Source of the DNA: Siphonodentalium dalli
Lineage: Eukaryota > Mollusca > Scaphopoda > Gadilida > Siphonodentaliidae
Reading direction: 5' to 3'
NCBI GenBank assembly: GCA_032622095.1
Contig: CP136068.1
Coordinates: forward strand, 48,912,443 to 48,976,442
Length of the DNA: 64,000 nt
A program made the position numbers and the translations under genes. The notes below the pieces were generated by a model. It was not told where the DNA came from, made no database searches, and was given only the letters and a program-made list of their open reading frames with translations. This document shows positions 7,353 through 63,361 of the stretch, piece by piece (within the stretch, counting starts at the first letter, position 1; each line of letters starts with the position of its first letter).

Positions 7353-7393
7353 GTGAGTATCGTCGAACGTCAGAATAGTAGACAAGTGTGCTA

Positions 7394-7757
7394 TTAACCC
7401 TTTGCCCAACAGAACGGCCCTGTGCCAATGCATTCTCTTATATATGCGAGTCGACCATAGGTCGCCTCGCATATATAAGAGAATGCATTGGCTTAACACA
7501 TTAAAAATTATAAAATTGTTAAAGATTTTTTTTAGGCCAATGCATTCTCTTATATATGCGAGGCGACCTATGGTCGACTCGCATATATAAGAGAATGCAT
7601 TGGCACATGGCATAACTGTAACCATCACAATGTGGTCAAGGAGCCGGTTCCAATGATATCCATATTTGTATGGTTTTATTGAGACAGACCGAAGATATTT
7701 TAGGCTGTTGAAGCTTTATTTGGGCGTTTTTGGCCGGTTTGTTGGGTAAAGGGTTAA
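7394..7757. mobile_element. piggyBac-like MITE, copy 2 (inverted relative to copy 1)
   Basis: A 356-bp element (7398-7753) with TTAA at both sides and ends CCCTTTGCCCAACA / TGTTGGGTAAAGGG. It carries the same two palindromes. Its right end is the reverse complement of copy 1's left end (the CTGTTGAAGCTTTATTTGGG region), so the two copies are head-on around exon b. Confidence 0.9.
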
Positions 7758-8520
7758 AGGCACGTGAGGCCTTAATTGTCGAAAATATTCATATTTGTTC
7801 CAAACACCGTAAACAGAAAAACATTAAAACGCATACAGTTTCGTTCATATATACCGTGACCATCGCGTAAACAGCATGTTATCATAAATACCTACTATAT
7901 TTTACATAAGCAAGAGTCTGATTTTGGTTACAGAGGACAGCACAATGCTACTGGCTAATCACACACAAATGGCATAAACGCTCTTTATCAGTTCCATATC
8001 AGGAATTCACCATCAAAGAACGCTCTTTATGTTTACCATCATAATATAAACAAACACCAGAAAAGTAACTGTTTATGCTTTTGTTTACATAACAATGGTT
8101 AAACATATGATAATAACATACTGTTTATGCGATATTTCTTATTTATATACGGGACAAAGTCTGTCTACATTTTGATGTTCTTTCTGTTTGTGGCGGTTTT
8201 TGACCGGTGGAAATATTTTCACATGATACCCACCGCCAAGGCTAACCGTGCCTTTAACTAACATGTATATGAATGTTTCAGGCCCACATGTCAATAAGAC
8301 GCCAATTGTCCCTAGCACATTGATTGATGGATTAATTTGAGGGTTTAACGTCGTTTTAGCCGCTGGGCCATATCACGACCAAGACAGAACCAGGCATCAA
8401 AAAGATCGTAGCGAAGCAACTGTGTAGCTAAATCAGACATTGGATTAGATTAAAACAATGCAATGATGAGCTATGTACAAATAAGAGCACCAAAAACAAT
8501 GCGTCATATGGTTTCTTTAC
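7758..8520. other. Intron sequence without recognisable features
   Basis: I see no coding frame or repeat structure that I can name here. Confidence 0.45.
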
Positions 8521-15820: not shown

Positions 15821-17605
15821 GAAAATATTTGTGTTAACAACTGATTTATATAAAGATATACATGAACCACGAAAATATCTGTGTTAAAAACTGATTTATA
15901 TAAAGATAGACATGAACCACGAAAATATATGTGTTAACAACTGATTTATATAAAGATATACATGAACCACGAAAATATATGTGTTAACAACTGATGTATA
16001 TAAAGATATACATGAACCACGAAAATATATGTGTTAACAACTGATGTATATAAAGATATACATGAACCACGAAAATATATGTGTTAACAACTGATGTATA
16101 TAAAGATATACATGAACCACGAAAATATCTGTGTTAACAACTAATTTATATAAAGATATACATGAACCACGAAAATATCTGTGTTAACAACTGATTTATA
16201 TAAAGATATACATGAACCACGAAAATATCTGTGTTAACAACTGGTTTATATAAAGATATACATGAACCACGAAAATATATGTGTTAACAACTGATGTATA
16301 TAAAGATATACATGAACCACGAAAATATCTGTGTTAACAACTAATTTATATAAAGATATACATGAACCACGAAAATATCTGTGTTAACAACTGATTTATA
16401 TAAAGATATACATGAACCACGAAAATATCTGTGTTAACAACTGGTTTATATAAAGATATACACGAACCACGAAATTATCTGTTAACAACTGATTTATATA
16501 AAGATATACATGAACCACGAAAATATCTGTGTTAACAACTGGTTTATATAAAGATATACACGAACCACGAAATTATCTGTTAACAACTGATTTATATAAA
16601 GATATACATGAACCACGAAAATATATGTGTTAACAACTGATTTATATAAAGATATACATGAACCACGAAAATATCTGTGTTAACAACTGATTTATATAAA
16701 GATATACATGAACCACGAAAATATCTGTGTTAACAACTGATTTATATAAAGATATACATGAACCACGAAAATATCTGTGTTAACAACTGGTTTATATAAA
16801 GATATACACGAACCACGAAATTATCTGTTAACAACTGATTTATATAAAGATATACATGAACCACGAAAATATATGTGTTAACAACTGATTTATATAAAGA
16901 TATACATGAACCACGAAAATATCTGTGTTAACAACTGATTTATATAAAGATATACACGAACCACGAAATTATCTGTTAACAACTGATTTATATAAAGATA
17001 TACATGAACCACGAAATGATCTGTGTTAACAACTGGTTTATATAAAGATATACATGAACCACGAAAATATATGTGTTAACAACTGATTTATATAAAGATA
17101 TACATGAACCACGAAAATATTTGTGTTAACAACTGATTTATATAAAGATATACATGAACCACGAAAATATTTGTGTTAACAACTGATTTATATAAAGATA
17201 TACATGAACCACGAAAATATTTGTGTTAACAACTGATTTATATAAAGATATACATGAACCACGAAAATATCTGTGTTAACAACTGATTTATATAAAGATA
17301 TACACGAACCACGAAATTATCTGTTAACAACTGATTTATATAAAGATATACATGAACCACAAAAATATCTGTGTTAACAACTGATTTATATAAAGATATA
17401 CACGAACCACGAAATTATCTGTTAACAACTGATTTATATAAAGATATACATGAACCACAAAAATATCTGTGTTAACAACTGATTTATATAAAGATATACA
17501 CGAACCACGAAATTATCTGTTAACAACTGATTTATATAAAGATATACACGAACCACGAAATGATCTGTGTTAACAACTGATTTATATAAAGATATACTTG
17601 AATCA
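15821..17605. repeat. 50-bp satellite array with 48-bp variants
   Basis: About 36 units of GAAAATATCTGTGTTAACAA, CTGATTTATATAAAGATATA, CATGAACCAC. A 48-bp variant (CACGAACCACGAAATTATCT then GTTAAC, lacking GT) recurs interspersed, mostly in the second half. Point variants (ATATATG, ATATTTG, GGTTTA) cluster in blocks, as expected from unequal exchange of multi-unit segments. Confidence 0.95.
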
Positions 17606-17811
17606 CAATATATTATGTTAGTGGTCAACTTGTCATTAATATCATAATTATACTCCCATGTCGTCGCAAGAAAGAATTCTAAAATTCCGGGCCAAAAATT
17701 TGACAAATCAGACACAGAAATTGTGTGAGAATTCACACCAGTGTTCGATATAATAAAACAAATAGTGCATGTATTATCATTCCGTGTGCCAATATAGTGG
17801 CCCTCGAGGAG

Positions 17812-29978: not shown

Positions 29979-30007
29979 CTGAAACAAAATATAAAAGGCG
30001 ACACTCA

Positions 30008-30407
30008 TTAACCCTTTACCCAACAGAAGGGCCCTGTGCCAATGCATTCTCTTATATATGCGAGTCGACCATAGGTCGCCTCGCATATATAAGAGAATGC
30101 ATTGGCTTAACACATTCAAAATTATAAAATTGTTAAAGATTGTAAGAAAAAATGGTAAAAAGTGTTAAAAAAAGATTTTTTTTAGGCCAATGCATTCTCT
30201 TATATATGCGAGGCGACCTATGGTCGACTCGCATATATAAGAGAATGCATTGGCACAGGGCATAACTGTAACTATCACAATGTGGTCAAGGAGCCGGTTC
30301 CAATGATATCCATATTTGTATGGTTCTATTGAGACAGACCGAAGATATTTTAGGCTGTTGAAGCTTTATTTGGCCGGTTTTGGCCGGTTTGTTGGGTAAA
30401 GGGTTAA
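30008..30407. mobile_element. piggyBac-like MITE, copy 4
   Basis: A 392-bp element (30012-30403) with TTAA on both sides, CCCTTTACCCAACA ends and both internal palindromes intact. It is nearly identical in layout to copy 2. It lies in gene 2 intron 1, immediately upstream of exon 2. Confidence 0.9.
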
Positions 30408-36006: not shown

Positions 36007-37622
36007 ACAAGAGGTGGCATCAGAGATGCTGTGTCTCGTTTTCGGTGGCTTACCGCCGGTGGCTACCGCCGGTGGCTACCGCCAACTGGTGTGCATCAGT
36101 ATCGGTAGTAGGTAAAATCAGTAATAGGTAACATCGAAAAATGACTAATTAAGGGCCATAACTCTATCAAATTTTTATCGGGCCAGGCTGGTTTTCGAAC
36201 TCGTCCGAAATATTCTTGGCAAGTATGTCTATTCCAAATTTTAAACAAATCGGAGGACGTTTGTTGAAGTTATCGCGCTAACGAGCTAAAAATTCACGAA
36301 AAATGACTAATTAAGGGCCATAACTCTATCAAATTTTTCGAACTCGTCCAGGATATTATTGGAAGACACTAATATACCAAATTTTAGTTGAATCGGATGA
36401 CGTTTGTTGAAGTTATCGCGCTAACGAGCTCAAAATTCGTACAAAATGACTACTTAAGGACCATAACTCTATCAAATTTAATCGGACCAGGCCGGTTTTC
36501 TAACTCGTACGAGGTATTCTTGGGAGACACCTATATACCAAATTTCAATCAAATCGGATAACGTTTGTTGAAGTTATCGCGCTAACGAGCTGAAAATTCG
36601 TAAAAAATGACTAATTAAGGGCCATAACTCTATCAAATTTTATCGGACCTGGCCGGTTTTCGAATTCGACCGAGATATTCTTGGGAGACACATATATACC
36701 AAATTTCAAATAAATCGGATAACGTTTGTTGAAGTTATCGAGCTAACGAGCTGAAAATTCGTGAAAAATGACTAATTAAGGGCCATAACTCTATCAAATT
36801 TTATCGGACCAGGCCGGTTTTCGAACTCGTCCGAGATATTCTTGGGAGACACCTATATACCAAATTTCAATCAAATCGGATAACGTTTGTTGAAGTTATC
36901 GCGCTAACGAGCTGAAAATTCGTGAAAAATGACTAATTAAGGGCCATAACTCTATCAAATTTTATCGGACCTGGCCGGTTTTCGAACTCGATCGAGATAT
37001 TCTTGGGAGACACCTATATACCAAATTTCAATCAAATCGGATAACGTTTGTTGAAGTTATCGCGCTAACGAGCTGAAAATTCGTGAAAAATGACTAATTA
37101 AGGGCCATAACTCTATCAAATTTTATCGGACCTGGCCGGTTTTCGAACTCGACCGAGATATTCTTGGGAGACCCCTATATACCAAATTTCAATCAAATCG
37201 GATAACGTTTGTTGAAGTTATCGCGCTAACGAGCTGAACATTCGTGAAAAATGACTAATTAAGGGCCATAACTCTATCAAATTTTATCGGACCAGGCCGG
37301 TTTTCGAACTCGTCCGAGATATTCTTGGGAGACACCTATATCCCAAATTTCAATCGAATCAGATAACGTTTGTTGAAGTTGTTGCGCTAACGAGCCTAAA
37401 ATCAGTAAAAAATGGCAAAGGGCCATAACTCTGTAATAAATGTGCGGACGAACCCGATTTTTTGTCTGCAGCTTACGTGCATGGATATGTACTCACACAC
37501 CAAAAATTTTAATCCGTCGATAAACGGTTGAGTTATAAGCAAAACACGCCGCCCGCCCGCCCGCCCGCCCACCGTCCCTCATCAAACTATAAGTCGAGTT
37601 TTGGAGAAAAAAACTCGACTAA
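36007..37622 (+). mobile_element. Satellite-bearing mobile element (pearl/HINE-like)
   Basis: It starts AACAAGAGGTGGCATC, followed by three TACCGCCGGTGGC units. Then come seven to eight tandem units of 161 bp (GACTAATTAAGGGCCATAAC ... GCGCTAACGAGCTGAAAATT), a (CCCG)n run near 37552-37572 and a terminal hairpin AGTCGAGTTTT / AAAACTCGACT (37591-37620). Head, tandem core, microsatellite and hairpin is the layout described for molluscan 'pearl' elements and Helentron-associated elements. The family assignment is inference. Confidence 0.8.
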
Positions 37623-47971: not shown

Positions 47972-50132
47972 TTATACTATGAGAATAAAGAGAAGTTCAT
48001 TAATTTCTGCCCCCTCTTCTGGACAGTCTCTGTCGTAAGGGACTGCTGGCTGGTATTGCCTTAGTATATATAATAGGGGAGAGAATACATACAAACTGGA
48101 TTGTTTTTTGATATTTGGGGTGTATTTATTAATGAAATGTGATTTTAGGTACTTATGATATTTGTCACTAGTTTCTACGCGAAGCTTACAATCACATGGG
48201 AGTTCATTCCTTAGACATCTGGCTCTGGTTGATATGACACTTCTTGCTTTTTTTGTTCTTCTGAATTCACAATACAGATTTGAATTTGCTTTGAACCGTG
48301 TATTGTGGTTATGGATATCATGTATATTAGTAAATATTGAAGACAGCGATGTGGGGAGTTTCTTTTGATGGAAATCATGTAAAATTTGTATTAGTTGCAT
48401 GTTTCCAATGTCATTCATCAATAGCAAATTGTGTTCCCTGCATATTTCTTGTATGCTTTTTTTTTTGTAAGATAGTGTGGCGATAGCTTTGTTTTGTATT
48501 TTTTCAAGATTTTCAAGGTTTTTCTTTGTTGTTGCACTCCATATAGCATTACAATATGTGAGATGTGGGATAATCAGTACAGAATAGATTGTTTTCATTG
48601 TATCTCTGGGTATGAAATCACTGATTTTTCTCATTACTCCTAAATTTTTTGACAGTTTCTTAGTAATAGATTCCACTTGCATATTCCATGATAAATTTTC
48701 TTCAATAATAATTCCTAGGAATTTAGTGCTTTTAACTCTTTGTATCTTATTTTCATTGATCTTGAGCTCGGATAGGACAGTTATTTTTTTGCATAGATCT
48801 GTATTCGTAAATATCATGTAATAAGTTTTTTCTAGGTTTAGAGATAGTTTATTAGCAAGAAACCATTTGTTCATTGTCTCCATTTCTTTGTTGACTACAT
48901 CATATGCCTTATTTATATCTTCATTAGAGTAAAATGCATTTGTATCATCAGCAAATAGTATTATATTCAGGTCCTTACAAATATTTGGAAGATCGTTCAT
49001 ATATATCAGAAAGAGTAGAGGGCCAAGTATAGATCCTTGTGGAACTCCACATATTATATCTGTTTGTGAAGACAAGTGGCCTTCATATTGTACAGATTGT
49101 TTTCTATTAGTCAAATAGCTTTGGAACCAGTTCAGTGCAATCCCACGACATCGTTTTCAAGTTTTCAAGTTTATTTAGCATTATATTATGATTTATTGTA
49201 TCAAATGCCTTTGATAGATCAAGGAATACCCCAATGGTGTGTTCTCTATTATCTAGGGCTTGGGTAATTTTCTCTAAGAGATCAGTTAGTGCCAGAATAG
49301 TTGAGTGATTCTTTCTGAAGCCATATTGACTTCTATATAGAATATTGTATTTGGTTAAGTATTTGTTCAGTCGGTTGTACATCATTTTTTCTAGGATTTT
49401 GGAAAATACAGGTAGCACAGAGACTGGCCTGTAGTTACTTAATGTGGTTGGGTCTTTAGCTTTGAAAATAGGTACAACTTTTGCTATCTTTATGAGGTCT
49501 GGAAAAATTCCATTAGCAAGAGAAAGATTGCATATATGTGTAATGGGTTTAATAATAAATTCGCTACAATGTTTCAATATTGAACACTTGAGATCATCAA
49601 TACCAGCAGCCTTTTTTGCACTGATATTTTTGAGAATTTCTATGACTTCAAGTTCATCTGTTGGTTGGATAAAGAATGAAGAACACTTAGGTTGATTAAG
49701 GTAATCTGCTGGATTCTTGTTAGATTTAATTTTTGAAGCAAGGGTTGGTCCAATATTGGTGAAGAATTCATTGAATTTGGTAGCAATTTCCTCTTTGTTA
49801 TTAATATATTTATTTTCATAAAAGAACTCTGTTACATTTTTGCTTCCCTGTTTCTTGTTGAGAATGTTTTTAATCAGTTTCCATGTGCCATTGATATTAC
49901 CTTCATATTGTTGGAATTTCCTATGATAATAGTGTTGTTTAGCAGTACGGATAATTGAATTTAGTCTATTCCTATACTTCTTGTATCGATCATTATTATA
50001 GTATGTTCTGTTCTTAATGAATATTTTATATAGTTTATTTTTTCTTCTAATGGAATTCAGTATACCTGCTGTTATCCATGGATTGCAATGATTAGAAGGT
50101 TTGATTTTCTTTCTGATGTTTGGAAAATTATT
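47972..50132 (-). pseudogene. LINE reverse transcriptase domain and C-terminus
   Basis: After a linker with KKAAGIDDLKCSILKHCSE, the palm and fingers show KVVPIFKAKD, NYRPVSVLPVFSKILEK, SQYGFRKNHSTILAL and FLDLSKAFDTINH. Then, after a one-base frame change near 49145, come GVPQGSILGPLLFLIYMNDL and FADDTNAFYS. The catalytic aspartates are in LSKAFD and FADD. The thumb has NKWFLANKLSLNLEKT and TKFLGIIIEENLSW. The frame ends at 47972. The family role is target-primed reverse transcription. This copy cannot make a full protein. Confidence 0.9.
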
Positions 50133-50135
50133 ATT

Positions 50136-51413
50136 TTAAATGTTTGTTAATGTTTCGTGGAAAGAATTGTAGGCTTTGTTGCAATCCTGGTTGTCTAACA
50201 CCATAGTCCAGCCAATTTTGGATATTTCGGTTATAAAATTTTCTTTGTTTCTTTTTGAATAGTCTCTTTGCCATATAAATACGTCTTTCTTATTCGTTGT
50301 TTTAGTTCCATTGCTCAAAAGGAGATAGCTAGGCATGTGATCTGTAATGTCTTCCACGAATATACCAGCATTGGTAGATGAGGAGAGGAGACAGTTGGAG
50401 AATATGTTGTCAATAAGGGTTGCACTGAACTCAGTTATTCTAGTGGGCTTCGTTATTGATGGCAAGAACATAAATTACTTTAGTAAGTTAAGGAAGTTGT
50501 TTCCGCTGGTGTTATTAGTATTTATGTTTATATTAACGTCTCCCATTAGGAAACAATCTTTTTTCTCTTTATGTATCTGGGTTAATACTGTTTCAAGTTT
50601 TTCAAGAAAGTCATCGACATTAGAATTTGGGCTTCGATATATACATCCTACTACATGTTTTTTTTATTTCTTTTTTTTCAGGAATTTCAATAAATAAGCT
50701 CTCAAAGTTCTCACTGAACAAAGACAAGTCTGATCGTACCTGTGCTTCAATGCTTTCATGTACATAAAGTCCAACTCCACCCCCACCTCTATCACTCCTG
50801 TGTTTCTCATATAAGCTATAGCTTCCCATTTTGGTTAGATCCACAGGAGATTCATCCTTAAGCCAAGTTTCAGTAACGCCTATTAGATCAAATCTGTGTC
50901 TACATGTATACAGGAAAGTGGATAACTTGTCCATGTTTTTTAATAGTGAACGTATGTTGAAGTGTATCATTGACGATGACACATTTTGGTTTATTATTTT
51001 CAATTTATCGTTAAATTCATCAAGGAGGGTATAGTTAGAGGAGTTTTCAGGATTGACTGGGTTTAAATTGTAGTCATCATCATCCATTTGATGTTCTTCG
51101 CGGAAGTCATCATTTAGAGTGAATGGGTTCATTAAAAATGATTTATTTGAATTTGTGTGAGTATATTCTTGTTTCATGTCAAATAATGCCAGTCGAAACA
51201 GTGCCTCTTCCTCCATGTGATTAAATGGAAATAACGTCTCATTACAATGGTAGCAAACCATGGGCTATCATCATTAGCTAGCTTCGTGAAATCTGTTTTT
51301 AGTAATTTAGAGCAGCGGAGGTGAATCCATTGATCACACAGGTCACAACATAACGCATCTTGATTTTTTCTCACTGATTTGTTGCATGTAGAGCATGGGT
51401 ATTTTAGAGGCAT
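50136..51413 (-). pseudogene. LINE PHD finger and AP endonuclease region
   Basis: It starts MPLKYPCSTCNK (ATG at 51411-51413). The C4HC3 PHD pattern is CSTC...CCDLCDQWIHLRC...W then, after a one-base frame change, CYHC. The endonuclease shows SSSMIHFNIRSLLKN, LIGVTETWL, DRGGGGVGLYVHE and, in a shifted frame, VVGCIYRSPN and CFLMGDVNIN. Near the end it has TRITEFSATLIDNIFSN and ITDHMP. These are the E, GD.N, L.DNI and DH catalytic stations of EEP nucleases. The role is nicking the target DNA. Confidence 0.85.
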
Positions 51414-51500: not shown

Positions 51501-51890
51501 ACATAAAGTTATAATATCACCCTGGTTAACTGGTCCAGTTATTATGTAAATCCTTCTGATAAGCTATGATTTTTGTGGGCCAAAATTATTCTGTTATAAA
51601 TTAAGTACTGCAATTTAATATTTTAGCTTCATTTAAGGGGCGGGCAGTTGTTTGACACGTTCCTCCAACGAATAAATCTCTAGCTACGTCCCTGACATTG
51701 TCTACAATACTAAGTAGTGTTTACAGTGTTAGAGTTTGAGGAGAGCTTTCCGATGAATGGCAACAAGCCATATTTCCGACTAAATCCTGAAAAGTTACCC
51801 ATAATTCTGCTGTGTTTAAGGAGACGATTACTTAGGGCATTACTGTATATAAGAATAAAATAGCAAAATGAAACTTAAAATATTGAATTA
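51501..51890. other. Short spacer between LINE and Helitron
   Basis: I see no gene or repeat structure that I can name. Confidence 0.4.
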
Positions 51891-53447
51891 CTAGCGGGCT
51901 ACGTGGCGTTGCCAGGTTAAAGTGACCCTCTGCTGTGGATAATTGTTGGGAATAGAGAATACACTTGCTCAAAGTGTTACACGTATTCTCATAAATTGTA
52001 TATCCAAATGGATTCACAAAACGTCATTCTTATACATGGATTATAAGTAGTGTCTCACTTTGGCATTTTGAATGTCAACTTGGTTATCACGATTAATTCG
52101 TCTCACCAATAAAGAAGTATTTATGCATTTACAGCTGTGCGTACTTCAGACGTTATAAACTTTTAAATCGTAGAGTTGACGTGGTTGGATTTGATTGTTT
52201 TAGATATATTTTTTAAAATATTTGTTATTGGGATCAAAACATGAACACCATAAACAGGTTAGTTCGCAAAAATAAATGACGACAATTGGGTTTTACATCG
52301 AGATTTATAAATCGATCTTGTGGGTTAGACCATGCATGTTTCAGAGGACACCTGGTTGCCATATCTCCACGAGGATACAGATGTTTTAAAGAAATGTCAT
52401 GGTGCTATATTGGCTAATTATTCTAAGTTTAAACGAAATATTGCTATATTTCAGCTACATGTGCTGGACACAGCAAGATTTTAAGTTGTTTATTAGGGCT
52501 ATGAGTCTGTTCTAAAATAAAAGAAATCCCCTGTAACGGGCGTATACTATGTACCCTTGTCAGATGCCAGTATTGGAATATCTTGAAAAGTCATGTGCTA
52601 TTGGTTGTGTTTTCTTTTATCTCAGAAGAAACTACATTTGACTGCACACTGTGACGACTATTTTTGAACAGGCTTTCTATACATTTCCATCTGACAAATG
52701 GAATCTTTTTTGTGAAAAATATCTTGAATTGGACAGACTCAATTGTGTTATAATACATGAGCCATTCTAACATGCCACTCTCTGATGGTTCAATGTCCCT
52801 CATTTTGCAAGAACATCTGTATTTCTTAAATAGAATGATAAATATACTTTTAATACTTCATTCAATGTATCTGGGGGTTTTTTCTAGCTCACTATATGAA
52901 TTCCCTGATTCCAGTCCCCATATAAATATGACAGTTGAGAAGCTCTAATTGTTCAAGTGACTTAATTCGGTCACCTTTATGTTGAGGTTGGGAAATTTGA
53001 ATGCCAAAAACTAAGAGAACGAATTATGGAGATAACTGTATACAATTTTCGTGGATTTAGGCGACTGAGACATTCTTATCAATGTTAGTGCCCCTCCCAT
53101 CTCCAGCCCTGACACAAACGGCAGCAAATATGGCGTCAAAACCACATGAATTTATTCCTCGTATCACTGGAGAACGTGAATGAATTTCGTGGAAATTAGT
53201 GCTAAACATATTTGTGTCAGCTTTGGTACCCCTCGTATCCCCATTCATAATTCGAACGGCACAACTTTTGACATATGAGTATGTATAAGTTTGGTGGTAA
53301 TCGACAGCTAAACAAATTCTCATCAAATTTAGTGCCCCTCCCCCATCTCGCACAAAACGGCACCAATTTGACCTCTAACTCATTAGATTATATTATACTC
53401 GTACCATGGAGAAGAATATGTATCAATTTGCTGGAAATCGGCGCTAA

Positions 53448-54828
53448 GGGTGGATACACACATGCATGTAATCTCTGTATATGTCGTGTATTTGTCGTTT
53501 TACATGGATCATACAAACCATGTAATATGTGTCCGCTGACAATCCAATCATTGCGGCTATGTTTGATCACAGTGAGCCAAGCTCTGAACGTGCAGAGAGC
53601 CGTTGGCTGAACGAAGTCGTCAGGCCGCTTAACATAATTGTTCGCGCGATAACCCAAATGTTGGACTTTCTGTTTAAATCATTGTCAGTCTTCTCTTGAT
53701 TTTTATACCAGTGATGGCCCCAGGATTTCCACAACGCTATAATCCCCAACATGGGGGGCAATATTATCATATTTCCCTGACGCAGGGGCTATATATGGTC
53801 CCCGACTTGGGGCTATATATGACCCCGAGAGCTACCAGGCGGGGTGGCTAACTCTGAGCTAATTAAGTAAAACATATTATATTGTTATCCAATATTAGAG
53901 TTTTACTTCGTAAATCATTGGGATTTAGAATTAACTGGTTAACCCCAAATTCGCGTTCGTAACGCCACAACGAACTGTTGCCCGCCCTGAATTAACTGTT
54001 GTCCGGTTTGCAATCACGGTCAGCTTTTGTGACGTCACGAGTGAACTGTTGCCCGACCCGAGTGAACTGTTGACTGGCTCCGAGCGAACTGTTGACTGGC
54101 CCGAACGAACTGTTACATGGTTTGCAATTTCCGTGACGTTTCGGCTATTTCCTTTTTGCATTCAGATACATGGCGGTATATTCCAGTTAGTTCTCATAAT
54201 TCGAAATAACACTATTAAAGAGTGTGATTAATTAGCAATGACCTGATTATATACAAGTAAATGTATTGGGTAACAAAGCAATTATTTCATGTGTCTTTTG
54301 GGAACAGGCAAAAGTGTTGTCCCTCGGTATCAGGAATGACCATCGAACTGTTGCCCTCGGCCTTCGGCCTTGGGCAACAGTTCGATAGTCATTCCTGATA
54401 CCTCGGGACAACAATTTTGACTGTTCCCAAAAGACACATGAAATAATTGCTTATTGTACCTTCTTGCCCAGATTATTCCGACCGATACATTCAACTAAGC
54501 CCCTTATCGATTTGAAGCTTTCGAAACCCCACGCCAAACAAGCTTCATGGTCGAAAATGTTCTATATCAAGCCTGTATACGCCAGATGTGTCGCCAGATA
54601 TCGCACAGACTTAACTAATTTCCACACCCGTAAGAGAAGACATGTTTTGGACTGGCCTTAAATGTCCTGACAGCAGACAGTTTGACTTCGCTTGTCACTA
54701 CTCACTTGTCTGGCCTGTTAACAATGAACCGCTCGCGCGCAGGTGATTAATGTTGTCAATTATTGGTGTGGCCATGTAAAATACATGTATTTTACATACA
54801 GAGATTACATGCATGTGTGTATCCACCC
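53448..54828. mobile_element. PIF/Harbinger-type non-autonomous element
   Basis: TAA target duplications (53445-53447 and 54829-54831) flank inverted ends GGGTGGATACACACATGCAT, identical for at least 33 bp. Removing it restores a continuous H1 satellite unit (...CGGCGC-TAA-AATAG...). A 3-bp TAA/TTA-type duplication with a GGG start fits PIF/Harbinger. The interior carries the AACTGTTG element (53885-54455) and a 65-codon frame (54464-54661) that I do not recognise. Confidence 0.8.
53885..54455. mobile_element. AACTGTTG repeat element, copy B
   Basis: Same order as copy A (880-1411): AGAGTTTTACTTCGTAAATC, the GAACTGTTG series, CCGTGACGTTTCGGCTATTT, then the right-hand inverted repeat with GGTATCAGGAATGAC. 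About 100 bp in the middle differ completely between the copies. Confidence 0.7.
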
Positions 54829-55667
54829 TAAAATAGTTTTTTATCATTGTTGGTGCCCCTCTCCCCCTCGGTGAACCCCTGACACATATCATAGGGATGA
54901 ATTTGGTGGAAATTAGCGCTAAACATATTTTTTATCAGTTTTGATGACACTCACATGCCAATCGCTGACTCAAGCGGCGCCACTTTTGACATCTTTAAAA
55001 CACAAAATTAGACTCATTATGAAAATGACTATATATAAAATTGGTGGAAATCGGCGACTAACCAAATCGTATATAAAAAAATTATTTTATTTTTTTTATC
55101 AATTTTGATTCCCCTCTCCCCTTCAATAGAACCCTGACTCGAATGATGCCACTTTTGACAGCTTTAATCAACAACATTAGACACCTGATATCTTGGAGAT
55201 GATTATATATAAGTTTGGTGGTAATCGGCGACTAATCAATTTTTTATCAAATTTAGTGCTCCGCCTCAATCTCTCACCTAAACAGCACCAATTTGGAGTT
55301 TTTAAATAACACGATTAGATTTCTTGTGTATGTGTATGTGTATCAATTTTGTGGAACACGGCGCTAAAATTATTTTTTATCAATTGTGGTGCCCCTCTCC
55401 CATTGCGTGCACCGCTGACTCGAACGGCGTCAATTTGGGCACTTTAAACCACGCCTATAGATCCTCATACCATGGAGATGATTATGATTATGTATAAGTT
55501 TGATGGAAATCGGCGACAAAAAAATGCTGCCCCTCCCCTTTTCTGCCCCTGACAACAACATCGTCACTTTATAAAATTCTAACCCACACCATTATCTTCT
55601 TCGTAAAAGGTCACCCCTGTTATAACCGTTTGGTGCCATCTGGGTGGTCTCCCGTGAATTTCTATAG

Positions 55668-55705
55668 AATACAGACAGGCAGACAGATAGACAGACAGAC
55701 AGACA
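55668..55705. repeat. (GACA)n microsatellite
   Basis: The CTGT-type tetranucleotide run in the head of H1 copy 1, seen here as its complement. Confidence 0.9.
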
Positions 55706-56103
55706 GCCATTCGCAAATATAGATATATTGATATGTATATAAAGAAAGTAAACTGTATAAGAATACATTTGCAAGATAAAAAGATTGCAAGATCAATTAT
55801 TGAAATTAATTAAAGCATTAAATAGACAATTGGATATAGTATTATTATAGAAGAAAACTTGGGCTATGTGCCCAAGTGCAATCTTTACACGACCGCTGAT
55901 TTATCGAAAACTATTATAAACAAATCACATGTTTTCAGCGCTATATATCGACGAATTTGTCCGGACATCTTCCGCGTGTGTATGTTTGAGATATCTATGT
56001 AAATATATATTCTGGGTTCGAACGAGCAATGTCCGTTTATGAAAATATTTTTAAAAGAATGACGATTTAAAAAATGAACGGTACTTTTTCTTAACACCGT
56101 CAT

Positions 56104-56845
56104 ATTGTTTCACCCACATCATAGATAAATCAGCAGGACCCGCCAACATTATAGCTAAATCAGCAGGACCCGCCAACATCATAGCTAAATCAGCAGGACC
56201 CGCCAACACCATAGCTAAATATGCAGGACCCGCCAACATCATAGTTAAATAGGCAGGACCCGCCAACATTATAGCTAAATCAGCAGGACCCACCAACATC
56301 ATAACTAAATCAGCAGGACCCGCCAACATCATAGCTAAATCAGCAGGACCCGCCAACACCATAGCTAAATCAGCAGGACCCCCAACATCATAGCCAAATC
56401 AGCAGGACCCGCCAACACCATAGCTAAATCAGCAGGACCCCCAACATCATAGCTAAATCAGCAGGACCCGCCAATAACATAGCTAAATCAGCAGACCCGC
56501 CAACATCATAGCTAAATCAGCAGGACCCGCCAACACCATAGCTAAATCAGCAGGACCCCCAACATCATAGCTAAATCAGCAGGACCCGCCAATAACATAG
56601 CTAAATCAGCAGACCCGCCAACATCATAGCTAAATCAGCAGAACCCCCAACAACATAGCTAAATCAGCAGGACCCCCAACATCATAGCTAAATCAGCAGG
56701 ACCCCCAACAACATAGCTAAATCAGCAGGACCCGCCAATAACATAGCTAAATCAGCAGACCCGCCAACATCATAGCTAAATCAGCAGGACCCCCAACAAC
56801 ATAGCTAAATCAGCAGAACCAGCCAATATACCATATAGCATTATA
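56104..56845. repeat. 30-bp minisatellite
   Basis: About 24 units of CATAGCTAAATCAGCAGGAC plus CCGCCAACAC, with 28-29-bp variants (loss of G or C in GGACCCGCC) that recur as multi-unit blocks at 56380-56780. A 103-codon minus-strand frame over it is an artefact. Confidence 0.95.
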
Positions 56846-56879
56846 GTAGACCCGCCAACATCATATCATTATAGCAGGA

Positions 56880-57300
56880 CTACTTGACCAGCGTAAACTT
56901 ACCTTAAATGTGTTTCCAACGGCACTGTGATTATTCTCTGACACATTAAACGCGCGATATTTCTTATGGTGACATCTACACGGCTCAATGTATTATAGAA
57001 CCAGTTTTCAATAGATAGCTTTTTTCAATCAATTATCAGAAGCTAATCCTCGCTGCATACATTATATCCTACAACAACGTCTTTCTAAGCTAAAGAGTAT
57101 GATGTTATGTTAAATAAATACCATCAGAGGGTAGTTTTTATTAGCTCAACGCATTTTTTGTCTTGCAATGTTATTCTTATACAGTTTACTTTTATATGTA
57201 TTATGTATATTACAATATTTTAAGTTTCATTTTGCTATTTTATTCTTATATATTTAACTTTTTATAAAACTCAATATTCTAATTTCGATCTTGCTGTTTT
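56880..57300. other. Spacer without assignable features
   Basis: AT-rich, with a weak duplication of 'ttttgctattttattcttatat' near 57225 and 57290. Confidence 0.4.
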
Positions 57301-57302
57301 AT

Positions 57303-58135
57303 TCTTATTTGAGCTTGAGCTATTGCCATGGGTAATGTGTTGGTGTCCGTCGTCCGTCCGGACGTGTGTGCGTCCGTCAACGTTTTCCTTTGGCCCACCC
57401 TACAGGCCGCTTCTCTCATCCGATCGCCACCAAACTTCATATTGATCTTCGGGGTGACCTCTATGTGGAATCTATCGATTATTTCTGAAATTCGTTAAAA
57501 ACATGGCGGCCAACATCTTGGATTTTACTCTGTGCATGACTAAATCCTTCGGTAAACCCTACAGACCACATCCCTGATCCGATCGTCACCAAACTTCATG
57601 CTGGTCTTCAGGGTCACCTCTAAATGGCAGCGATCGATTGTTTCTGAAATTCGTAGAAAAACATGGCCGCCGTCTGCCATCTTGGATTTTACTCTTTGCA
57701 TGACTAAATCCTTTGTTTAGAGAATCGTTTTGAAAATTTTAAGGCATATTTAGGATCACCTCTAGATGGGAGCCATCGAATTTGAACAATTTTCGATGAA
57801 AAACATAGCCGCCGCCAGCCATCTTGGGTGTTATTCTTTGCATAACTAAATCCTTTGGCACAACCTACAGACCACATCCCTCCTCTGATTATCACCAAAC
57901 TTTATATTGATCTTCTGGGTGACTTCAAGATGGGAGCCATTAATTTTTTCCGAACTTCGTAGAAAAGCATGGCTGCCAGCGGCCATCTTGGAGATTTTCT
58001 ATTTGCATGACTAAATCCTTTGGCACACCCTACATGTCACATCACTCATCCGATCGTCACAAAACTGCACATGAATCTTCGGGTGACCTCTAAATGGCAG
58101 CCGTTGATTATTGCCATTCTATTCATTGCTGAGCA
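57303..58135 (+). mobile_element. Second satellite-bearing element (~160-bp units)
   Basis: The head is TTGAGCTTGAGCTATTGCCA followed by a GTCCGTCCG-type run. Then come four to five diverged units of about 160 bp with 'ccctacagaccacatccctgatccgatcgtcaccaaacttcat', 'aaacatggcggcc' and 'catcttggattttactctttgcatgactaaatcctttgg' motifs. The layout resembles the 36.0-37.6 kb element. No closing hairpin was found. Confidence 0.7.
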
Positions 58136-58261
58136 AACAAATTAACCCCTTCCCAAGTTGAGCTGCAGTATCATTGACACTTTCATCCTTTTGATATACG
58201 CAAGCTGTCGGTTGCATATAAGCAGCATTAATTCGTCAAGCAAAATCAACGGAGATCTGTA

Positions 58262-58335
58262 TAGTTGTGTCCCTGCACTCGACCTTCCATCTTTCTAGGC
58301 CAAATAGTTTATGCCGGAAGATGTCCCGAAAAGTT
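58262..58335. repeat. 75-bp direct repeat, copy 1
   Basis: CGACCTTCCATCTTTCTAGG through CCGGAAGATGTCCCGA recurs at 58838-58910. Confidence 0.85.
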
Positions 58336-58545
58336 GGTGTTCATACGTTTAGTATGGCACGGGTTAGCGACTTGCAACTGACGAAGATCTTATTGGCTTT
58401 TTTTTCCTTCTCTGGTGATATCATTTAAAAATTCTAAATTTTAAATTGTGGGTTTTATTAATTGAGATATTAAGGTGCGTACGTTCGCAATTCTTTTCCA
58501 AATTTTGCAAAACCGCTCCGGACCACTGCTCTCCACCCTAAATTT

Positions 58546-59290
58546 ATGACAAGTGAACGAGGAATCATGTATCTGAACAAAATTGGGTCACTGTTCCTTT
58601 ATTGTTTTCCCCTATTTCCATATGCTTTGCAGATTACCTCTTCTTTCTCTTGTCATCCTAATATCAAAACGCTTTCAAGCTGTCAGCCAGCATTTCATTA
58701 TGACGTTTTACTGTCCTTCCGAGATGCTATGTGTGATTTTCGCCAATCCTACATGGTGACATTGTGTTACCTGGTCAGACACCGACTTACCACTTACCAC
58801 TTATTGGTTACCTATAAAGCAAACTGAATGGAGTTCTGTAGTCGTGTCCCTGCAATCGACCTTCCATCTTTCTAGGCCAAATAGTTTATGCCGGAAGATG
58901 TCCCGAGATTGCAATATCATAAAGAATCGATTGAAAAAGCTTTGTCTGAAACTCGTATCGAATGAAGAATAAGAAGATCGTGTGTCCTCGGTGTGTCCTT
59001 CATCCTCAGAACAACCAATTTAACCATTTCTTTACTAAAATCTCATTGACGAGTAGTTACCCTGACAAAATTAATTTTCAGACAATAAGTTTGTTGGACA
59101 TGTTGTTTAAATCTGTCCCACCAATGATTAGGAATCAGTCTGCAATCTATCGCCTGATTCTATTCCCTGAACACATAGAATTTCAGGAAGCTCCATTCAT
59201 GGAAGGGTTAGACAGAACGAAACCAGAGCCACGAATTACGAACCCTTTCCATACTTTTCAGAAATTCACTGACTCGATAAACTGTTGAAC
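58546..59290 (+). other. Region with two unassigned open frames
   Basis: Frames at 58546-58827 (93 codons) and 58962-59288 (108 codons) carry no motif I recognise. The second has a CPRC start. The 75-bp direct repeat lies between them, so they are more likely part of a repeat than a gene. Confidence 0.25.
58838..58910. repeat. 75-bp direct repeat, copy 2
   Basis: Nearly identical to 58262-58335, same orientation. Confidence 0.85.
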
Positions 59291-59365
59291 AGGCATATAG
59301 GGTTAATATGGCTGGTGTGGTCGTTATAGTCTTGGTTACTAAGTAACACGTACAGATTCGCAAAA

Positions 59366-59930
59366 ATGGTACGTGTATATATGTTACTACTCAGATACAC
59401 TGGTACATGTATATATGTTACTACTCAGATTCACTGGTACATTTATATGTTACTACTCAGATTCACTGGTACATGTATATATATGTTACTACTCAGATTC
59501 ACTGGTACATGTATATATGTTAGTACTCAGATTCACTGGTGCATGTGTATATGTTATTACTCAGATTCACTGGTACATAGATAGATCTTTATTTGCACAA
59601 TAATATACAATACATTAACAGAATATTAAACAAAAATACATTATTGCACAGGAGCAGCATGACCTAGCTGGCCGTCTTCCTGCTGCCCCTGAATGATAAG
59701 TGCAATATGAACATATGATGGCGTATTTACAATTTCACACAGACTATTTGGTATTTGGTACATGTATATATGTTATTACTCAGGTTGACTGATACATGTA
59801 TATATGTTATTACTCAGATTGACTGGTACATGTATATATGTTATTACTCAGATTGACTGGTACATGTATATATGTTATTACTCAGATTGACTGGTACATG
59901 CATATCTGGTATTACTCGGATTCGCTGAAA
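59366..59930. repeat. ~30-bp minisatellite interrupted by a LINE tail
   Basis: Units of ACTCAGATTCACTGGTACAT plus GTATATATGTT. Six or seven lie before 59577 and about five after 59757. 'TTCACTGG' units dominate on the left and 'TTGACTGG' units on the right. Confidence 0.9.
59578..59756 (-). mobile_element. 5'-truncated LINE 3' end
   Basis: On the minus strand it ends in TTGTGCAAATAAAGATCTAT then CTATG: a polyadenylation-like AATAAAG followed by an ATCT tail. It is about 180 bp, inserted in the minisatellite. No coding sequence remains. Confidence 0.6.
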
Positions 59931-60529
59931 CGGGTATTTTGTTACCCAGACTGAGAAAATATAATGGAAAAATAAAACAAAGGTTATCCCTCTTCATTTG
60001 GGTAGTCGAGATCAATGCCACAGTGACCGATACAATCCGAAATTATAATCACCGACTTACTGAGGAGATACGCACTTAGCCGAGTGCGAAGGTTACATGT
60101 TATCAGTCAGTTATCGTACGTTCTCAGTAACCTAACATGAAATGAAGACGTACGTATCCCATAGTGGTAAATAAAAGTAGATGCTCAGATGCAAGAATTG
60201 GGAGAGATGGAATTTTATCCGAACGTTTGCTTCTCGTTTAGGAGTGAGTGATTTAGTCTTCATTGTAATATATGGAGATATTTAAAAAACACCTTTCCGG
60301 TAAGTGAATCGTGGTTTGCACTCCACAAGTCAGAGAACAATAGAAAGTCGCTCTCGTCGGCATAGGCGTCCGTCTGTCCGTCAGGGCGTCCCTATCCACC
60401 GAGGGTACCTTATGTGTGTGTTTCCTTGTTTTGTTAATTTCTTATGTGGTCAGTTCTTAAGTGGTTATAATTGTGTGTTCATAAGTGGGTATAAGTGGAA
60501 CTTGAGAAAAATGTGTGAGAGGATCTATA
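59931..60529. other. Spacer before H1 copy 2
   Basis: I see no recognisable gene. Confidence 0.4.
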
Positions 60530-60543
60530 TCTATATTTGCGAA

Positions 60544-60544
<1 letters not shown>

Positions 60545-60573
<29 letters not shown>
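60545..60573. repeat. (CTGT)n microsatellite
   Basis: Seven CTGT units in the head of H1 copy 2. A similar run lies at 61900-61928. Confidence 0.9.
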
Positions 60574-60574
<1 letters not shown>

Positions 60575-60699
60575 GTTCTATAGAAATTCACAGGGGACCA
60601 TCTAGATGGTGCCAAAGGGGTCTACTAGGAGTAGCTTTTAACGAGAAAGATAATGGTCGGGGTTAGAAATTTCTAAAGTGACGCCGTTGTTGTCAGGGG

Positions 60700-61890
60700 C
60701 AGAAAAGGGGGAGGGGCAGAAAAAAAATTGTCGCCGATTGCCACCAAACTTATATATAATCATCCCCATAATATGAGGAATCTAATGGCGTGGTTTAAAT
60801 ATGGCAAAAGTCGCGCCGTTCGCGTCAGGGGTGCCCGGAAGGGGGGAGCAGATATTTTTTTTGTCGCCGATTGCCACGAAACTTACATATAATCATCCCC
60901 ATGATATGAAGAATCCAATGGTGTGGTTTAAATATGTCAAAAGTGGCGTCGTTTGAGTCAGGGATGAACGGAAGGGGAGAGGGGCACAAAAATTGATAAA
61001 ACTAATTTTAGCGCCGATTTCCACCAAATTGATATATATTCTTCTTCATGATACAAGGAATCTAATTGTGCGATTTAACAAAGCCAAATTGTTATATTTG
61101 GATGAGAGATTGGGAGCGGGTGGGCACTAAATTTGATAATAAGTCGCCGATTGCCACCACACTTATATAAAATCATCCCCATGGTATGAGGAGTCTAATT
61201 GTGTGGCTTTTAGCTGTCAATGTGGCCTCATTCGAGTCAGGGTTGTATTGAAAGGGACAGGGGCACCAAAATTGATGCACAATTTTTTTTAGCGCCAATT
61301 TCCACCAAATTGATACACGTTCTTATCCATGATACGAGGAATCTAATCGTGATTTAAAGACGCCATAGTGGTGCTGTTTGGGTGAGAGATGGAGAGGGGA
61401 GGGATTGGCACCAAATTTGATAAAAACAACTGTTTAGTCGCCGATTATCACCAAACTTATAAACAATCATCTCCATGATATCAGGAGTGTAATCGTGTGG
61501 TTTAAGGATGTCACAAGTGGGGCCATTCGAGTCAGTGGTGTATAGAGATGAGAGGGACACAACAAATTATATCTATATGTTTAGTGCCGATTTCCACCAG
61601 ATTGATACATATTCATCTCCGTGATACGAGGAATCTTATCGTGTGGTTTAGATACACCAAATTGGTGCCCTATCGGTGAGAGATATGGGGAGCTTAAATT
61701 TGATACGAATTTGTATACTCGCCAATGTTCACCAATTTCATATATATGCATATATAATCTCTAACGAGTCTTAGTGTGTGCAGCTTGAGTCCGAAATAGG
61801 GACGGGAGGGTCACCATAATTGATACAAAATATTTTTAGTACCAATTACCATCAAATTCAGACACGTTCTTCTCAAATGATACAAGAAAT
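60700..61890. repeat. ~150-bp tandem repeats within H1 copy 2
   Basis: Seven to eight diverged units with 'gccgattgccaccaaacttatatataatcatccccat', 'tatgaggaatctaat' and 'gtgtggtttaaa' motifs, reading opposite to those at 53060-55570. Confidence 0.85.
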
Positions 61891-63361
61891 AAAATCGTGT
61901 TGTCTGTCTGTCTTTTTGTCTGTCTGTGTGCGTTCTATATATAACTTCACGCGGTACAATCGAGATGGCACCAAGGCGTTCTAAGAGTGGTAACTTTTTA
62001 CAATGAAGATAATGGTGCGGGTTAAAATTTTCTAAAAGGACGCTGTTGATGGGAGGGGAAATTTAAAAAATAGGGTGAAATAGTTTTGTCGCTGATTTCC
62101 ACCAAACGAATACATAATCATCTTCGCAATATGGCGTTGTTCGAGTCAGCGTTGCATCAACAATTGATTTAATAAACTAAATTCCACCAAATTCATACAC
62201 GTTTTACTCTAATGATATACCATGAATTAAATCACATTTGGTGTCGTTTGCTTCACGGGTGGTGAGCGGATATGCACTATCATTGATAAGATTGCTATTC
62301 GCCGATATCCACATATAAGTTATATACAGTCACCAGGCCATCTCCATATCATTTTAAGTAGTTGGGCGTTCACATTTCACAATCCCGACATATGGTGACC
62401 CACATAAGTCACTTGAACAATTATATCTTCTTAACAGTCATATTTATATGGGAATGGCAATCAAGGCATTCACACAATGAGCTAGCAAAAAGAGATAACA
62501 AGAAGAAACATTAAACGTATATTTATCATTCTATTGAAGAGATACATATATTCGTGCAAACTGAGAGAACTCGAACCGTCAGATGATTGCATATATATAA
62601 AATAACAACATTTAGTCTGTTCCATTCAATACAGTTTCCACAAAAACTTACAATTTGTCAAGAGATATGGAAGGCCTGTTCAAAAATAGTGGCCACAGTG
62701 TGCAGTCAAATATAGTTTCTTCCGATATACAATAAAATGCAGTTAGTAGCACAAGACTTCTCAGGATCCTACCAATACTGACATCTGACAAGAGTTTTAG
62801 AACAGACTCATCGACTGACATAAACAACTCAAAATCTCGCTCTGTGCCTGGCACATGTAGCTGATATATCTGCGCAGAAACATTTCGTTCAAACTAAGAT
62901 TATTTAGCCAACAAATAGCACCATGAACAGAGGAGCACCTGGAAATTTCTTTGAAACATCTGTATCTTCACGGAGATATGATAGCCAGGTGTCCTCGAGA
63001 TTTTAGTCCAACCCACTAGATTGAACGATACATCTCAATATGTAAAACCCAATTATCATCTTTTATCGAACTAATGTGTTTATGATGTTCATGTATCATA
63101 TTATAACGTCTAATGTATACGCAGTTGTAAATAAATAAATACTTCATTATTGGTGGAACGGATTAATCGCGATAAACAGAATGACAATTGACAAGGTGAG
63201 CCACTACTTATATTCCATGACTGTAATAATCATGTTTTGTGATGCTATTTGAATATACAATTTATGAGAAAACGTCTAACACTTTAAGCAAGAGCATTCT
63301 CTATTCCCAACAAATATCAACAGCATACATTAACCTGGGCAACACCGGGTAACCCTGCTAG

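Follow-up and report, generated by a model that had tools for sequence, protein, structure and literature searches.

A window of 64,000 nucleotides (nt; the whole stretch of DNA analysed here) on contig CP136068.1 of the scaphopod Siphonodentalium dalli, part of a 2.23-Gb genome in 9 contigs, contains two related elements, here named A and B, which are inverted relative to each other and 65–81% identical over aligned blocks. Both carry the 16-nt sequence TCTATATTTGCGAATG, found once per strand in the window, together with a (CTGT)n head, and both display the same order of parts: a TC head, (CTGT)n, tandem units mostly of about 133–148 bp, a region of about 1 kb without recognised genes, and CTAG. 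A first-pass annotation had described them as two inverted Helitron-like elements with tandem-repeat cores. That description holds, as do the CTAG|T ends it placed at 63361 and 51891; the tandem units it gave as about 150 bp are present, but mostly at the length mentioned above. Very probably, A and B belong to a high-copy family of canonical, apparently non-autonomous Helitrons, which have 5′-TC/CTAG-3′ ends and are inserted between a host A and a host T.

Structure of the Two Elements

Element A is found on the forward strand at 60524–63361 (2838 bp) and appears to be a complete non-autonomous Helitron copy, with a host A before it and a host T after it. Its bounds follow from the ends of distinct copies, 89 on the 5′ side and 18 on the 3′ side. 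The 5′ terminus, TCTATATCTATATTTGCGAATG (60524–60545), starts where conservation ends, at position −6 relative to the start first noted, and it runs into the (CTGT)n microsatellite head (60544–60574), which was found with Tandem Repeats Finder (TRF). The tandem array (60728–61900; TRF and unit alignment) has units of about 133–148 bp and is followed by a second, internal CTGT head (61901–62133). The latter was recognised by self-similarity, is 73% identical to the first head over 237 nt and has no TC terminus; internal heads like it lie about 1.0–1.5 kb into the element in many other copies. No coding frame was recognised in the 3′ region (62134–63332), which is conserved among copies. It leads to a stem-loop (63333–63350) with a 6-bp stem, including one T·G pair, and a 6-nt loop, which ends 11 nt before the 3′ end. 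The terminal CTAG (63358–63361) is placed by the 3′ ends of the 18 distinct copies and is followed by T.

Element B, the more diverged copy, lies on the reverse strand from 55731 to 51891, and also has a host A before it and a host T after it. Its (CTGT)n microsatellite head is at 55671–55706 (TRF). The span is 3841 bp, of which about 2.46 kb is B's own sequence and about 1.38 kb a later insertion of a transposon with terminal inverted repeats (TIRs).

Copy Number and the 5′ End

In the whole genome the exact 16-nt head occurs 2437 + 2441 = 4,878 times, against 0 + 0 for the reversed control, an abundance far beyond chance. The 5′ ends were studied in 100 heads, all from the first 52.5 Mb of contig C1, and in the two window copies, giving 102 heads that represent one part of one chromosome plus the window. 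Thirteen heads with flanks repeating those of another head were dropped, and 89 distinct heads were kept. Long stretches were available for 29 loci (27 fetched and two in the window), of which 26 are distinct, L014, L015 and L023 being repeats of others. Elements at distinct loci are 66–96% identical over their best aligned stretch, with higher values only in short stretches shared with L026, and the closest full-length pair is A and L027 (95.7%). This range of identity indicates that the family is long-lived and has subfamilies.

The heads with flanks in common with another head (13 of 102) lie 10 kb to 14 Mb from their counterparts on C1, some of them inverted; examples are L013/L014, L011/L015, L022/L023 and L074/L075/L076. 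In the two pairs that were aligned across the element, identity is 99.8% and 99.4%. Such heads either arose by recent duplication or represent haplotypes left unmerged in the assembly.

The first-pass annotation had assigned A|TC starts to both elements. Such a start is indeed found within 14 nt in 79 of the 89 distinct copies, 65 of them having it at the usual place (ATC at −7 to −5) and 14 elsewhere, and eight of these 14 carry extra TTC units. The exact start had to be rejected, as the conserved sequence runs 6 nt further upstream, with A in 71/89 copies at −7, T in 80/89 at −6 and C in 76/89 at −5; upstream of −7 only background base composition is seen. The true 5′ ends are therefore displaced upstream by 6 nt in A (60524) and by 8 nt in B (55731). 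The usual 5′ end is the one given above for A, and slip variants have the form TC(TTC)nTATATC or, in B, TCAATATATC. Exact TCTATA is present in 74 copies, and the base before it is A in 64, T in six, G in three and C in one (p = 7e-23 for A, given an A frequency of 0.31 in the window). The empty sites of L021 and L026, described below, show that the extra TCT belongs to the element. The length of the CTGT head varies from 0 to 11 uninterrupted TCTG units within 44 nt, longer runs being cut off at that length, and nine of the 89 heads show no TCTG unit.

The 3′ End and the Stem-Loop

The 3′ ends were located by a fuzzy match to a motif ending in CTAG, with the following base left free. One was found in 18 of the 26 distinct long loci, which means that 18 copies carry both ends; a search for copies sharing both ends was a check that the first-pass annotation had named. 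The two ends of the family are written here as TCTATATCTATATTTGCGAATG (5′) and GGGCAACGCCGGGTAACCCTGCTAG (3′). The terminus reads CTAG in 16 of the 18 distinct copies, a count biased upward by the presence of CTAG in the search motif, and CTAT in the other two. T follows in all 18, and this base was outside the motif. Measured from the start first noted, the copies span 289 to 3950 bp, 15 of the 18 falling between 2.5 and 4 kb. A 3′-end candidate with seven errors in L020 was dropped as a chance match.

Between the stem ACCTGG-6nt-CCGGGT and the terminus lie 11 nt. Of the 18 distinct tails, 14, including that of A, keep all six pairs (one is T·G), while L009 and L010 keep four and L050 five. 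The hairpin about 11 nt upstream of the end, which had been attributed to both elements, is thus present in A and in most tails; in this register the stem of B is disrupted, and by eye just a 4-bp TGGC/GCCA stem remains. The stem-loop is at the right position for a Helitron, and its structural role is putative.

Empty Sites and Target

For 20 copies, among them L014 and L023 from duplicate loci, the joined flanks were compared against the whole of the available sequence. Spanning matches that are clean at the junction were obtained for four copies, L021, L029, L026 and L051. L021 lies inside a 509-bp satellite, and three intact neighbouring monomers match its joined flanks at 99.75%, 99.5% and 98.8% over 400, 400 and 325 bp, respectively; the junction reads CATCA|TAGCAT with no gap. 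The repeat that holds L029 is palindromic, and intact copies of it are found in the window at 7709–7393 (90%) and 30359–30007 (82%), differing by indels away from the junction. The empty site of L026 matches one other place, also covered by L016 and L008, at 88% over 122 nt, and that of L051 matches L051:3654–3818 at 86%, with the junction beside a TA run.

B was inserted into a host repeat (51846–57252) with inverted arms at 51846–51890/57208–57252 and 55745–55782/57155–57192. Its joined flanks align to the opposite arm of this repeat (57155–57252) with 87% identity over 98 nt. No block is added or missing, and there are substitutions and small gaps near the junction, so this empty site is supporting, diverged but consistent, and not clean. 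The four clean sites and that of B all fit insertion between A and T without target duplication, as a search for empty A|T sites had been expected to reveal. Apart from the unclean matches of L027 and L054 described below, the other joined flanks gave no spanning match in the limited sequence compared. Target duplications and ends lying elsewhere, which the first-pass annotation had listed as findings that would speak against it, were not seen, apart from the 6–8 nt shift of the 5′ end.

Some features of the hosts may be added. The satellite at L021:3890–5541 consists of near-identical 509-bp monomers, one of which took the Helitron insertion. The insertion sites of L029 and L054 (CCAATGCA|T) almost coincide within a common palindromic repeat resembling a miniature inverted-repeat transposable element (window 7393–7758 and 30007–30407). 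The host repeat of B contains a tandem array of 24 copies of a 30-bp unit (56116–56826).

The Tandem Array

The array was analysed in eight of 15 two-ended elements, using the 62 units that were 90–200 nt long and dropping the others. For 59 of the 62, the nearest relative is a unit from a different copy, mostly 89–100% identical and found at the corresponding place, while the best match within the same copy is mostly at 70–88%. Three units are exceptions: units 3 and 4 of L021, which are 97% alike, and unit 9 of L013 (0.72 versus 0.73). The L021 pair is a recent local duplication, the sole recent one within a copy seen in these eight. In L016 the first unit is missing, and no unit elsewhere is a good match for its unit 9 (0.76). 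Since nearly all units are closest to units of other copies, the array was built in an ancestor and has been copied as a block, not regrown.

An array made anew by rolling-circle slippage at each transposition would agree with the varying CTGT number among copies, and rolling-circle transposition has been discussed as an amplifier of internal sequences in the available part of one paper (PMC8268682). The 59 units that are closest to another copy, and the single recent duplication within a copy, make this very unlikely for the array: regrowth at each insertion is mostly contradicted for the 140-bp units, but not for the CTGT run.

The elements stand out above all by their tandem core and microsatellite, and some copies have local duplications (L021 units 3/4, at 97%, and the head of L061). 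This could be taken to suggest satellite DNA spreading alone or via recombination involving extrachromosomal circles, with the terminal similarity coming from shared flanks. Such an origin is contradicted by the fixed ends within unrelated flanks and by the precise empty sites, and the units (59/62) match across copies by position and not by neighbourhood; it must be regarded as extremely improbable. In L061 the 5′ head is duplicated in tandem, 145 bp apart, a possible first step of array growth.

Coding Capacity

In 15 of the elements the longest open frame is at most 215 amino acids, and no Pfam family reached its cut-off in seven of the longer open reading frames of these elements. The copies are non-autonomous as far as seen. 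Retroelement-like frames occur among the 25 longest open frames of loci L001–L029. Rfam gave nothing in the window at gathering scores, and the exact patterns of both element ends were absent from viral contigs.

Classification and Mechanism

Canonical Helitrons are recognised by a 5′-TC terminus, a 3′-CTAG (CTRR) terminus and insertion between A and T without target duplication, and all three features are found here. Several observations weigh against placing the family among them. Ten of the 89 distinct copies are without an A|TC start, and some of the 14 off-place starts are probably due to chance, as a search over 12 positions hits ATC fairly often. No 3′ end was found within the 3.9–6 kb fetched in eight of the 26 distinct loci (L011, L012, L018, L019, L020, L024, L028 and L052); L018, L019 and L024 match parts of the tail, so some of the eight are truncated or interrupted. 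The CTAG count has the bias described above. Two spanning matches of joined flanks are not clean, that of L027 (77%) being poor beside the junction and that of L054 one base short at it, and a second match for L051 has a gap at the junction. As single-stranded DNA the stem-loop folds no better than shuffled sequences (z = 0.16 for A, −0.02 for B and 0.16 for the consensus), 106, 86 and 97 of 200 shuffles, respectively, folding as well. Finally, no RepHel was recognised by eye in the 25 longest frames of L001–L029, and no genome-wide RepHel search was made.

Helitron transposition proceeds by rolling-circle replication: RepHel starts at the TC end, the hairpin and CTAG act as the stop, and the copy is joined between A and T. 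For the present family we infer the same mechanism and a RepHel partner. The RepHel protein of an autonomous relative would presumably act in trans and nick at the 5′ TC, and one strand would be peeled off by rolling-circle replication, which would stop at the 3′ stem-loop and CTAG. The copy of the element would then be joined between a host A and T. In this reading, the tandem block of about 140-bp units and the (CTGT)n run are internal passengers that were fixed in a progenitor and are carried along with the element.

The microsatellite and central tandem repeats are also the mark of the HINE, DINE-1 and Pearl elements, and this raises the possibility of a Helentron-associated element that is moved by a Helentron with its endonuclease, the CTAG end being incidental. 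The internal plan is as in the oyster Cg_HINE, which is described in the available text of PMC7492417 with a left module, a GTCY-type microsatellite, central tandem repeats (there related to Cg170) and a right module with a palindrome. According to the portions available of PMC4067079 and PMC7492417, however, HINEs favour T-rich or TT sites and have subterminal inverted repeats (subTIRs) of about 11–15 bp. Here B and the four clean cases all have an A|T target, and no such repeat was found: the best inverted match of the first 22 nt of the consensus to its last 130 nt is 7 bp, equalled by 548 of 2000 simple shuffles. When the copies were analysed singly, 12 of 13 were unremarkable, and L017 reached 4%. 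Membership of the Helentron/HINE group was rejected on the grounds of the A|T sites and the missing subTIRs, and is highly improbable.

It is also rather unlikely, if less so, that a canonical Helitron lineage has adopted the Helentron-type body plan, a tetranucleotide head plus a satellite core, without the subTIRs. If it has, selection for this body plan, or its ready acquisition, would not depend on the Helentron machinery, and the mixed ends could be recognised by a partner RepHel of chimeric or proto-Helentron-like type.

Relation to Known Elements

The combination of classical Helitron borders with a satellite-bearing layout, pointed out in the first-pass annotation, is present, but it is less unusual than was suggested, since lepidopteran Hel-2 (PMC4344730) and mixed oyster elements (PMC7992393), as described in the available parts of the papers, precede it. 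The Hel-2 elements (BmHel-2/OnMITE01) have 5′-TC and 3′-CTAG/CTRR ends, A/T flanks and a 3′ hairpin, a variable (CTGT)n behind a 5′ subTIR, and internal tandem arrays, the latter named in a figure legend (PMC4344730, available part). The layout TC, (CTGT)n, tandem array, hairpin and CTAG between A/T flanks is thus matched here, as judged against this published description. In the same text Hel-2 has a 5′ inverted repeat and subTIRs, the latter not found here, and the sizes given are 339 bp for a two-element consensus and 1006 bp for one baculovirus insertion, whereas the present elements are mostly 2.5–4 kb.

For the oyster Cg_HINE/Pearl elements and the Cg170/HindIII satellite the accessible text of PMC7492417 reports a microsatellite (GTCY and alike in several elements), satellite-like central repeats, subTIRs of 11–12 bp and a suggested preference for TT sites. 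The left module, microsatellite, central repeats and right module with a palindrome are shared with the present family, which differs in its A|T target, its TC/CTAG ends and the lack of a detectable subTIR. In mites the subTIRs of HINEs are given as 12–15 bp (PMC4067079, in part). A set of Helitron-like elements with mixed features from Crassostrea gigas has TC/CTAG ends, A|T insertion (86% of cases there) and a 3′ palindrome, as here, and those TC/CTAG elements, which partly have HINE features, were called possible intermediates (PMC7992393, in the sections available). There, subTIRs are reported in 257 of 751 elements and a microsatellite in one screened subTIR-bearing element only, while here no subTIRs were found and the microsatellite is common. 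Proto-Helentron-Pi of Phytophthora, from a lineage with Helentron traits, shares the CTAG end and A|T insertion, but has a 5′ TT and is a protein-coding element of about 14 kb (PMC4067079, same portion). Helitron-borne satellite arrays have been described in bivalves (PMC8268682 and PMC5139131, from the parts available).

A literature search with the terminal motif TTTGCGAATG gave no transposon paper by title among the matches listed, and searches for Helitron together with GCCGGGTA, and for Helitron together with CTGT, microsatellite and satellite DNA, gave no paper. The layout is already known from lepidopteran Hel-2 and partly from oysters, and the elements make up a new, well-supported family of a known kind, compared with Hel-2 by description only. 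Current views are not overturned. The family has well-defined limits, its heads number in the thousands in a single genome and its empty sites are exact to the base, which makes it suited for asking how rolling-circle transposons keep and spread satellite-like arrays. In the copies examined the array moves as one block, with rebuilding rare. The plan of microsatellite plus satellite does not depend on Helentron ends.

Other Features of the Window

The transposon inserted in B (53448–54828), which we take to be Harbinger-like, has the TIR GGGTGGATACACACATGCATGTAATCTCTGTAT, with perfect inverted repeats of 34 nt, and by eye a 3-bp TAA duplication. It holds an internal palindrome of 177 nt, and a related fragment (85%) is found at 880–1410. 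Two further tandem arrays are located at 15821–17620 (36 units of 50 bp) and at 36335–37432 (6.8 units of 161 bp). On the reverse strand, 47972–51264 contains open-frame fragments resembling a non-LTR (long terminal repeat) retrotransposon, with an endonuclease and a reverse transcriptase recognised by eye.

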